Source: Bacteriovoracaceae bacterium
GTDB taxonomy: Bacteria > Bdellovibrionota > Bacteriovoracia > Bacteriovoracales > Bacteriovoracaceae
Reading direction: 5' to 3'
DNA length: 43,887 bases
Assembly (NCBI GenBank): GCA_023954635.1
Contig: JAGSHI010000014.1
Coordinates: 1-43,887, forward strand
The notes under the pieces were generated by a model. That model did no database searches and was not told the origin of the DNA. It saw only the letters and a program-made list of their open reading frames with translations. A program made the translations under genes and the position numbers. Positions 1,592 through 5,508 of the stretch are shown here, one piece after another (the first letter of the stretch is position 1; each line of letters begins with the position of its first letter).

Positions 1592-1668
<77 letters not shown>

Positions 1669-1737
1669 TTTTTCCTTATTCTATTCATCATTTTATTTCA
1701 TTTAGTGCTATCCTATTTCTATTCAAGGAGAACGAAG

Positions 1738-2187
1738 ATGAGTGAAGCGAAAGCTTATTGGAGAAAATGTGCTACATGTGGAAAAGAAATTAACTTTAAT
1801 TCCATATATCAAAAATGTAGCGTCTCTAGTTGTCGAAAAAGTGTATGGTGTAGTGTTGATTGTTGGGACATTCATAACCCAGTCATGAATCATAAGAACT
1901 CTTGGGCCGAAGAAGAAACGGCCCCTGGTAGAGAACCTGTAAGAAGAATTGTCTCATCTCCTAAAAATTCTTCACCTACTCCAAACCATTCATCAAATAG
2001 TGAGATTCCTAAAGACATTTTAATAGTCGCCAGTAAACTGAAGGCCTATGTGAAAGCAAAGTACGACCTTAGTACTTCAGGAAATGTCATGGAAGCCCTT
2101 AGTGATATTATGAGAAATGAGGCCGATAAAGCATGTGAAAAAGCAATCGCCGATGGAAGAAAGACGTTGATGGACCGTGATTTCTAA
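1738..2187 (+). CDS. Zinc-finger protein with C-terminal bacterial histone fold
   Basis: This 149-residue protein has two parts. Residues 11-52 hold C11, C14, C27, C32, C38, C42, H46 and H52, spaced like a cross-brace zinc finger of the MYND/HIT or ZZ kind. After a polar Ser/Pro/Asn linker (about 57-90), residues 93-149 look like one histone fold: a helix with SKLKAYVKAK, a T/S turn, a long central helix, then ADGRKTLMDRDF. That ending matches the conserved GRKT-x-x-x-x-D-[IF] end of archaeal histones and of the Bdellovibrio bacterial histone as I recall it. The likely role is DNA binding or chromatin organisation with a zinc module for a partner; this is inference. The ATG at 1738 is preferred because AAGGAG lies just upstream; an earlier in-frame start at 1705 lacks one. 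The 3' end overlaps the next gene by 11 bp. Confidence 0.85.
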   Translation: MSEAKAYWRKCATCGKEINFNSIYQKCSVSSCRKSVWCSVDCWDIHNPVMNHKNSWAEEETAPGREPVRRIVSSPKNSSPTPNHSSNSEIPKDILIVASKLKAYVKAKYDLSTSGNVMEALSDIMRNEADKACEKAIADGRKTLMDRDF

Positions 2188-3817
2188 AGAAACTTTAAAA
2201 AAACCATTTATATTTAAACTTGGTTGTCTGGTAACAATTTTTTCAATTTGTTTCGGTTATCAAATTAAATCAGGAACCAACACACTCTTTCATAATGGAA
2301 ATTGGAAAGTTGAAAAAAGAGAACTTAAAGTTGGCGTTACAGGAAGCGATGAGTTTCTCTCAACAAGAGCACCTCTCTATAAAAATCAATTAAGCCTTGG
2401 ACGGTGGTACGGTCATCATTCAATCCGAAGTCCAAAAATTAAAGATTTAAATTCTGGAAAATTAAGATTTCGTTTAAATAGTAATCAGTACTTGTCATTA
2501 AAATTGAACAACTCTCCTTACTCGAATCATGGTGTAGTTATCAGTGCTGATAAAAACTTTATTTCTAATTACTTTACTGGTGAAGAGAAGAATTACTCAA
2601 GAGTAGTTTTAAAATCTGACCAACTAAAGAAAGAGTGGAATAAACTCTCCTTTAAAATAATTGAAAGAGAGCTCCTTTTTGAATTAAACGATAAGGCCCT
2701 CACAAAGGTCAATATTAATGGCCCAGTTAAATTTAACTCAATCACAATTCGTTCAGGCCTTCATGGCGCAATTGTTGATGACATTTATCTAAACTCTTCT
2801 TCTCATCAGTCATTTGAAGAACATTTCTTTGATCACAAGGGTGCTATACTAAACTCTCTCTATGTTTTGATTATCCTAATCATATTATTATTTCTTATTT
2901 TTCATTTTTTTCCATCTCTTGATAAGAACAATATCCTCCTACTATTAATGACCTTAATTTTTTGTCAAAACATATTTCTTTATTACGATGTCTTTATTTG
3001 GTCAAAAAAAGAAATTAGTCCTTTTAGCAAGACATTATCTGGTAAAGATATTTCAACATTAGCAACTCGACTCGAAAGAATTCGTTTTGGACTGTTTCAT
3101 CTTTTAGATTTGAACTCATTATCAAATATTCCCTCAGCTGAAGGTTTGAAACGTATTGGTTACCCAACAAAGCGGATTTACGAAGGGCCCATACTCTGTA
3201 TTGGAACGAGTAAATGCTCAAAGAGAAAAATTAAAACAGCTTCTTCAGTAACAGGAAAGGATATTTCGAAACTTGTTCTAATAGGGACTTCACAGAGTGT
3301 TGGATCAGGAGCAAGAACTATTTCAGATACATTCTTTTCAAAGTTACATTTTCACATACAAAAGAAATTAACTGGTAATAAGTTAGTCTCTCTCAACTTT
3401 AGTGAATCGGGATCTAACCCAGAAACTCTATACTCAAAATACTCTGAACAAATAAAAAATCTTAATCCAGAAATATTTATAATAAACCTAGTTAATAACG
3501 GAGACGATGTTAACTATTACAAGGGACTTAGAAAACTTGTCGAACTAGGAAAAAGTTTAAAGTCGAGAGTTTTCTTAATTCAAGAAGCAGTTAGTATTGA
3601 GTCCGATTTAAAGTTAAATAAAAGGAGAGAGTTTATATCTTCCCTTTCTGGTCCAAAGATCCACATCATTGACCTTAATTCAACATTTAGAAAGAAACCT
3701 TTTTATGCTGGGGATTTTAATTTTTGGGATTTTATTCACCTAACAAATCAAGGTCACCACAAAGCTGGTATTTTCCTAGCAGATGAAATAACAAAAAAGA
3801 TGACCCTAAGGAAGTAA
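2177..3817 (+). CDS. Membrane-anchored SGNH/GDSL-type hydrolase
   Basis: The C-terminal domain (about 362-540 of 546) carries SGNH hydrolase signs: GTSQS at 370-374 with Ser372 as likely nucleophile, an N-rich block near 437-444, and DFIH at 518-521 as the Asp-x-x-His pair. The N-terminal part has a membrane segment at about 10-28, a beta-rich region (30-210), then two hydrophobic segments at about 226-275. The hydrolase domain is therefore tethered to the inner membrane, probably facing the periplasm. Members of this superfamily are esterases or acyl transferases on glycans or lipids; the substrate here is unknown. The only plausible start is GTG at 2177, inside the histone-fold gene, which suggests translational coupling. 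The 3' end overlaps the convergent DCC gene by 12 bp. Confidence 0.7.
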   Translation: MISKETLKKPFIFKLGCLVTIFSICFGYQIKSGTNTLFHNGNWKVEKRELKVGVTGSDEFLSTRAPLYKNQLSLGRWYGHHSIRSPKIKDLNSGKLRFRLNSNQYLSLKLNNSPYSNHGVVISADKNFISNYFTGEEKNYSRVVLKSDQLKKEWNKLSFKIIERELLFELNDKALTKVNINGPVKFNSITIRSGLHGAIVDDIYLNSSSHQSFEEHFFDHKGAILNSLYVLIILIILLFLIFHFFPSLDKNNILLLLMTLIFCQNIFLYYDVFIWSKKEISPFSKTLSGKDISTLATRLERIRFGLFHLLDLNSLSNIPSAEGLKRIGYPTKRIYEGPILCIGTSKCSKRKIKTASSVTGKDISKLVLIGTSQSVGSGARTISDTFFSKLHFHIQKKLTGNKLVSLNFSESGSNPETLYSKYSEQIKNLNPEIFIINLVNNGDDVNYYKGLRKLVELGKSLKSRVFLIQEAVSIESDLKLNKRREFISSLSGPKIHIIDLNSTFRKKPFYAGDFNFWDFIHLTNQGHHKAGIFLADEITKKMTLRK

Positions 3818-4204: not shown

Positions 4205-5508
4205 AGTGTTCTCATTAACAATTTCAGAACTTGATCATGGGATTGGTTACATCCACCTAACTTAATTCCAGAAAAACTTCTTCTAAAATAATCGAAAAAG
4301 AGATCCTTTCCCGACTCCTTAAAGCTTTTATCAGATTGTTCACTAAGTATAGCTTTCATCGAATCAAAATTTCGAACAAGTCGTCTATATTCAAAATAAT
4401 TCATATCAAACTCTTCGGCATAACGAGGCAAAATCATATGTTCCCATAGGGCAACTATCTCTCGACTATCCAAGTTTTCTGGCACCTGATTTAACATTTT
4501 TCTAAGGTCTTCAACAGTCTGAACACTCATCATTTTTTTGGTCCAATCCATAAGCCCAGACCACTGATCTCTATTTTTTGTTAGGAATATTTGCTTAGAG
4601 AATTTTTTCCTAAATGATAACTTTAAATTTTCATCATCACTATTCAGAATATGTTGGATAAGCAAGGTAGTTTTAACTTGTTTTTCAGTCTTTAAAGTCA
4701 TTACATATTGAACATAATCATTAGTTATCCCATTACCAACCATAAACCTTAACATTGACTGATAACTTACTGAATCCTGAAAGAATCCCATTTTACCCAT
4801 CATAGATTTAACCCAAGTATTTTTAGCGACAACAATAACTTCAGACATGTCATCAACCTGCCTCATCGGATATAGAAAATTATCAGGGTTTTTTAGCCTT
4901 AACTCTTTTTGAATAATGCCTAGATTATCTTGATATTTTAAATATGCTTCTTTTGACCCAAGTGCGCTTATTATTTTTCTCTTGATGACAAGTTTTTCCA
5001 AGGAACCAGGTATCGTTGAATACATAACACTCCATGGAGTCATCGCCGATATTGGGATAAGATGAGGTAATCCCATATTAATTAAAATTCCAGGTACGAC
5101 ATAGTCAGAAGTCATTCCCATCATCACAGCAATTGCGACACCAAATCCCTTTCTCTTAAAAAGAACTTTTACTTTTAAAAAAGTCACTTTAAATAAGTCC
5201 CAAACATTATTAATTTTTAATGTTCTAAAAGGCTCTAGGAAAATACTTTTTTTAGCTGGAGTGAGTTCTAAACTATTGGCATAAAAATCTGCAAAGACAT
5301 CAATTTTTTCTTTAAATATTTTTTCAAATTTAACCTTATCGATATCGTCTAGACTTTTAAATCTTGGGTTCTCCCTCTCAATCTCATGTCCCACTTGTAG
5401 GATCACGTTCGCAAACTCCAAGGAGAACTGATATTCAGCCTTCAAATCTCCCGCCCACGAGGTCGAAAAAGTAGAAATAAATAGAAATATTACGAATACA
5501 TATCTCAT
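4201..5508 (-). CDS. Secreted protein of unknown function
   Basis: I do not recognise this 435-residue protein. Residues 1-19 are a clear signal peptide ending SWA before GDL, so it is exported. The mature part is mainly helical and charged. One region with hydrophobic stretches (about 120-168, containing VAIAVMMGM and LINMGLPHLIP) might insert into or lie on a membrane. Only one cysteine is visible near the C-terminus, so disulfides are unlikely. It overlaps the DCC oxidoreductase gene by 4 bp. The leader contains CCGATAAG 6 nt before the ATG; the same octamer precedes the divergent lipoprotein gene. Confidence 0.75.
   Translation of the reverse strand: MRYVFVIFLFISTFSTSWAGDLKAEYQFSLEFANVILQVGHEIERENPRFKSLDDIDKVKFEKIFKEKIDVFADFYANSLELTPAKKSIFLEPFRTLKINNVWDLFKVTFLKVKVLFKRKGFGVAIAVMMGMTSDYVVPGILINMGLPHLIPISAMTPWSVMYSTIPGSLEKLVIKRKIISALGSKEAYLKYQDNLGIIQKELRLKNPDNFLYPMRQVDDMSEVIVVAKNTWVKSMMGKMGFFQDSVSYQSMLRFMVGNGITNDYVQYVMTLKTEKQVKTTLLIQHILNSDDENLKLSFRKKFSKQIFLTKNRDQWSGLMDWTKKMMSVQTVEDLRKMLNQVPENLDSREIVALWEHMILPRYAEEFDMNYFEYRRLVRNFDSMKAILSEQSDKSFKESGKDLFFDYFRRSFSGIKLGGCNQSHDQVLKLLMRTL

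Follow-up and report, generated by a model that had tools for sequence, protein, structure and literature searches.

A zinc-finger histone of the Bdellovibrionota and a possible docking role for its finger

The zinc-finger histone gene and its surroundings

The window analysed here is a stretch of 43,887 nucleotides from a Bacteriovoracaceae bacterium (GenBank assembly GCA_023954635.1, contig JAGSHI010000014.1, forward strand). It contains a gene for a protein (P0001, the window protein) in which an N-terminal cysteine- and histidine-rich module is joined by a linker to a C-terminal histone fold. The coordinates of these features are collected in Table 1. An alternative in-frame GTG is present at 1705, but we prefer the ATG as the start because the starts of relatives fall near it. 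The gene is single-copy in its genome (a 3.7-Mb draft in 219 contigs, 98% complete). All or part of the window protein is matched in 44 of the 59 nearest relatives. Relatives that match across both finger and histone are found in various parts of the phylum Bdellovibrionota.

Table 1. Features of the zinc-finger histone locus (positions in the window; residues of the window protein)
Feature	Position	Strand	Basis and remarks
tRNA-Val (GAC)	1592..1668	+	ARAGORN; 69 bases upstream of the histone gene
Ribosome-binding site AAGGAG	1725..1730	+	Read directly; 8 bases 5' of the ATG
Zinc-finger histone gene	1738..2187	+	149 aa plus stop; translation
Predicted zinc-finger module, residues 8–52, CxxC-x12-CxxxxC-x5-CSVDCWDIH-x5-H (short-loop form)	1759..1893	+	Same eight ligands in every sequence of alignments A1 and A3
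Finger-module end WAEEETAP, residues 56–63	1903..1926	+	P63 invariant; shortest stand-alone fingers end a few residues beyond
Fast-evolving linker, residues 64–90	1927..2007	+	dN 0.52, against 0.12 in the finger and 0.075 in the histone (window vs L031, the nearest relative)
Linker motif RRIV, residues 69–72	1942..1953	+	[RK][RK][ILV][ILVM] recurrence among fused linkers
Histone fold, residues 91–149, bacterial-dimer type, short alpha-3	2008..2184	+	Gapless match to HBb (8fvx/8cmp)
Loop-2/alpha-3 motif R141-K142-T143...D148 (RD clamp and DNA contacts), with R147	2158..2181	+	Alignment; HBb contacts from PMC11317129
546-aa membrane protein gene	2177..3817	+	Next gene; 11-base overlap with the histone gene

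Among the relatives examined, the tRNA-Val gene and the overlapping 546-aa gene are shared with the nearest relative (L031) only, and the histone/membrane-protein gene pair is absent from other genera. A functional linkage to either neighbour was rejected on this ground; the membrane protein probably lies outside the system, and the context is uninformative on function. Comparison of the gene neighbourhoods of relatives found no conserved operon around zinc-finger histone genes. The C-terminal half of the membrane protein reads as SGNH-hydrolase-like from its sequence, and the gene overlap is retained in L031.

Other histones occur in this genome and its relatives. The genome of the window encodes two face-to-face (FtF) singlet histones, L033 (G000:C33:5166-5378), which has a lysine-rich N-terminal tail starting MAKKKAKKKATKKK, and L034 (G000:C91:1758-1943). 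Bacteriovoracia relatives encode tandem histone doublets of 137–146 aa (L030 and L165–L172) with two bacterial-dimer-type folds per chain, which resemble a covalent HBb dimer and are found in many genomes of this family. In these doublets the alpha-1 lysines (SKxK) and the RKT loop are present in both folds, in contrast with DUF1931 doublets, which are without DNA-binding residues.

A histone fold with a conserved DNA-binding face

A phmmer search of the whole protein against PDB sequences matched HBb (Bd0055; 8cmp/8fvx), a Bdellovibrio histone of known structure, with an E-value of 1e-6. Residues 91–149 alone aligned to HBb without a gap (E 1.4e-7), and the family profile matched it with an E-value of 2.7e-18, in agreement with the initial annotation, which had placed a single histone fold at residues 93–149. 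Residue numbers in the window protein are those of HBb plus 90.

HBb touches the DNA backbone only, its main contacts being N22, R57, S9, T53, T8, S24, K10, K12, K52 and K16 (PMC11317129). Eight of these ten are retained in the window protein (S99, K100, K102, K106, S114, K142, T143 and R147) and two are altered (T8 to A98 and N22 to S112), while the RD clamp of HBb, R51/D58, is retained as R141/D148. As these contacts and the clamp are kept, the DNA-binding face is very probably functional, and by homology with HBb the protein would be expected to dimerise and to bend DNA.

A predicted cross-brace zinc finger with no match to the Pfam ZZ model

The eight predicted ligands of the finger (C11, C14, C27, C32, C38, C42, H46 and H52) occur without exception in 19 full-length relatives and in 23 fingers, fused or stand-alone. 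Pairing them by the published scheme (sites 1+3 and 2+4) yields a predicted C4 site (C11, C14, C38 and C42) and a predicted C2H2 site (C27, C32, H46 and H52) in the cross-brace order that had been proposed for residues 11–52, and the finger is predicted to bind zinc. The dN/dS of the finger is ~0.1 against the nearest relative, and both finger and histone are conserved in sequence far beyond chance. Together, the open reading frame, the HBb match and the invariant ligands bear out the original reading of the gene, in which a bacterial histone fold is joined to a zinc finger. The loop before C38 has five residues in the window's family and nine in most others; the third pair, C38-x3-C42, is invariant, with the sixth ligand at CxxxC in every relative.

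Proteins of this architecture were defined as ‘ZZ histones’ by Schwab et al. in 2024 (main text of PMC11390915). The zinc-finger class of prokaryotic histones mentioned in the initial annotation thus exists, the window protein is a member of it, and its architecture was already described in that year. The name itself is another matter: none of the 23 fingers matched the Pfam ZZ model (PF00569), up to an E-value of 5, so the ‘ZZ’ identity of the finger is without support from sequence. Their Pfam matches were weak, sub-threshold ones to other zinc fingers, including MYND (2/23) and HIT (1/23), and hhalign against approximate ZZ, MYND and HIT sequences gave no significant match. The whole protein had no match above cut-off in Pfam or NCBIfam; a weak match to Rhodanese_C over the cysteine-rich part fell below cut-off and was taken as chance. 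AlphaFold2 models were poor both for the full protein (four sequences, mean pLDDT 49.6) and for the finger (two sequences, mean pLDDT 47.2), and at this low confidence displayed a histone-like long central helix and, in the finger, a weak hairpin and a helix.

A recurrent basic-hydrophobic motif in the linker

The linker motif [RK][RK][ILV][ILVM] occurs in 45 of the 61 distinct fused linkers, as against a mean of 0.58 and a maximum of 4 in shuffled linkers, and 16 of the 17 stand-alone fingers with a tail carry a C-terminal [ILV][ILV][RK][RK] (PKVILRR-like), where 0.70 would be expected; the rows are related, so these counts overstate independence, and the linkers are otherwise widely divergent. 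The residue order is opposite in the two (RRI-V in linkers, VILRR in tails), and the motifs may therefore be different elements. Finger-less histones (L091–L093) retain the linker motif; the shortest finger-only proteins are without a motif. In a set of stand-alone fingers (L119–L122, L127, L128, L130 and L145–L152), the finger is followed by a conserved stretch, EEW..xLxGE..PRxRK, then by a disordered region and VILRR.

Finger and histone occur fused, separate and alone

We searched 369 Bdellovibrionota genomes with finger-only and histone-only profiles. The finger is present in 174 of them and is fused to the histone in about 145 (a hand count from a comparison of searches). In 19 genomes the finger is a separate gene, and no histone gene of the bacterial-dimer type lies closer to it than about 6 kb; in one of these genomes (G326), finger and histone genes lie ~740 kb apart on one contig. 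A bacterial-dimer histone is found in 304 of the 369 genomes, that is, in most of the phylum, so finding both genes apart in one genome argues only weakly for a link, and in separate-gene genomes the histone may simply be the phylum's ordinary HBb relative. One further candidate for a separate gene (L107 in G116) was set aside as an assembly fault or a deletion, its histone reading on into a methyltransferase on a contig of 3.4 kb.

Nine finger-bearing genomes are without a bacterial-dimer histone. Of these, three have a face-to-face histone elsewhere, and the other six belong to genus g37, where queries with HBb, FtF and family sequences detected no histone (four of the six genomes are at least 93% complete). 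The finger-only proteins at g37 loci L088, L089 and L090 are 72–97 aa long and end a few residues past the invariant proline, and their genes are flanked, in conserved order, by proton-pyrophosphatase-like and ExbB/ExbD-like genes. Conversely, histones without a finger occur at L091–L093, and since they have downstream genes in common with the finger-bearing loci L070 and L076, finger loss is indicated. The finger tree requires at least six changes of state, two of them forced by well-supported branches, and is badly resolved; its alignment columns are too few to tell whether fusion or splitting came first, and it was rejected for that purpose.

No relative of the window protein was found in the phages and plasmids searched, and the viral contigs searched held histone-domain relatives only, none with a finger. 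Two of these (L066 and L067, positions 4980-5168 of viral contigs of ~44 kb) are 62-aa phage-encoded histones, ~52% identical to the window histone domain, whose genes adjoin those for an AAA ATPase, a thymidylate synthase-like protein and a phosphoesterase.

A published survey gives a similar distribution. Hocher et al. report Bd3044 as a second, longer histone of low abundance, found in 37% of Bdellovibrionota (sections of PMC10627809 on this gene), which is similar to our count of fused genes in about 145 of 369 genomes. B. bacteriovorus HD100 expresses a ZZ histone at a low level (main text of PMC11390915), and by elimination this is Bd3044. A review (PMC11318664) gives the deletion of both Bd0055 and Bd3044 as lethal, whereas the original, in its account of the deletions, describes attempts for bd0055 only (PMC10627809).

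A possible chromatin adaptor

The most likely reading, which we hold with somewhat more confidence than doubt, is that the window protein serves as a minor adaptor that bends DNA and, through its finger and motif, docks a putative partner. Two copies of such a ZZ-class histone would pair through their histone folds, contact the DNA backbone on the minor-groove side and, judging from the contact residues, bend the DNA as HBb does, each copy bearing a two-zinc cross-brace finger and the RRI-V motif on a flexible linker of ~27 residues. Finger and motif would take no part in packing DNA and would dock a partner protein, with the adaptor either positioning the DNA bend at the partner or bringing the partner in. 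In other lineages, where the finger and a similar motif make up a protein of their own, the docking part would work away from the histone.

Several results argue for this adaptor. A finger that occurs separately, even without a detectable histone, is probably a docking piece for a putative partner. Finger and histone are tightly constrained, with the linker between them loose yet keeping its motif; finger-less relatives keep that motif at loci that elsewhere bear a finger; Bd3044 is reported to be of low abundance; and there is no conserved operon. Counting against it are the opposite motif orders, the motif-less shortest fingers and the low-confidence finger models. The initial annotation had suggested recruitment of the DNA-packing unit to a partner or a DNA end, of which the partner is plausible, backed by the separate fingers elsewhere and the conserved linker motif, while nothing supports the DNA end.

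The finger could alternatively bind DNA itself, making the protein a regulator that bends DNA at specific sites. Because the histone of HBb contacts the backbone only, specificity could come from another DNA-reading part, and the linker motif is basic; however, the finger has a net charge of ~+1 and an acidic AEEE end, and its invariant residues besides the ligands (23 fingers) are mostly hydrophobic or structural, so we regard this as unlikely. Somewhat less likely again is a finger that reads the lysine-rich tails of other histones, as the eukaryotic ZZ domain does on H3, and so brings the protein to chromatin of face-to-face histones. The two FtF singlets of the same genome, one with such a tail, would offer a target, and Schwab et al. 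report a structural likeness of ZZ histone fingers to the HERC2 and p300 ZZ domains (main text of PMC11390915). The same text states, however, that the H3-pocket residues are not conserved and that half of the carriers are without a second histone; the failure of all 23 fingers to match the Pfam ZZ model also speaks against a tail reader, and genus g37, which keeps the finger with no histone detected, weakens the idea further. Slightly less likely still is a finger that, with no partner, passively stabilises the protein, helps it to dimerise or senses zinc or redox state: two clustered, thiol-rich predicted zinc sites are invariant, but histones without a finger at the same locus and fingers without a histone indicate that each part can be stable without the other.

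Returning to the adaptor, we suggest more tentatively, as an idea that may well prove wrong, that the finger is a bacterial docking module in its own right, distinct from ZZ, which together with a basic-hydrophobic peptide would link a putative partner to the nucleoid. Working in different lineages fused to a histone, beside a separate one or without one, such proteins would form a bacterial chromatin-adaptor family. The recognition of bacterial histones is recent, and the examples investigated to date do no more than bend or wrap DNA; if the proposal is true, a histone with a docking module would mean that the targeting of histones to partners exists in bacteria too. The natural fused, separate and single-part versions are ready-made constructs for testing what the module binds.

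Comparison with known systems

The MYND and HIT fingers (PF01753 and PF04438) share with the window finger an aromatic-CS-x2-C before the histidine and the cross-brace order, but the window finger differs in its second pair, C-x4-C, and in having histidine instead of cysteine as its last ligand. The eukaryotic ZZ domain is likewise a two-site cross-brace finger; its third cysteine pair is spaced C-x2-C, in contrast with C-x3-C in the window finger.

HBb (Bd0055; PDB IDs: 8cmp, 8fvx, 9ezz and 9f0e) has in common with the window protein a gapless alignment of 56 residues, the eight contacts, the RD clamp and a one-turn alpha-3. It differs in having neither finger nor linker and in the two altered contacts, and it is abundant, whereas reports describe its ZZ counterpart in that species as scarce.

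The closest system is that of the ZZ histones themselves, a subfamily of the alpha-3 histones exemplified by D0LYE7, with an N-terminal C4 and C2H2 finger and a C-terminal bacterial-dimer-like histone as in the window protein; RKTxxxD, the alpha-1 lysines and the spacing C-x2-C-x12-C-x4-C are identical (main text of PMC11390915). The class residues R141, K142, T143, D148, K100, K102 and K106 are all present. At the position of the FtF residue N52 the window protein has D139, and N is never found there in the 19 relatives; position R48 is occupied by K in the window protein and by R in some relatives. D0LYE7 has nine residues before the third cysteine pair, as against five in the window protein, and its ligands are given as C20, C23, C36, C41, C51, H59 and H65, with the sixth printed as C53 (C43 in the profile), that is, CxC (PMC11390915, main text). 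Relatives with the nine-residue loop have the same spacing as D0LYE7 except at this sixth ligand, where CxxxC would put it at C55, and the printed CxC position is probably a misprint. No mention of a linker motif or of stand-alone fingers for ZZ histones was found in the main text of PMC11390915. Set against that text, what is added here is the CxxxC position of the sixth ligand, the failure of the fingers to match the Pfam ZZ model, fingers that are separate or in genomes with no histone detected, and a linker motif that recurs.
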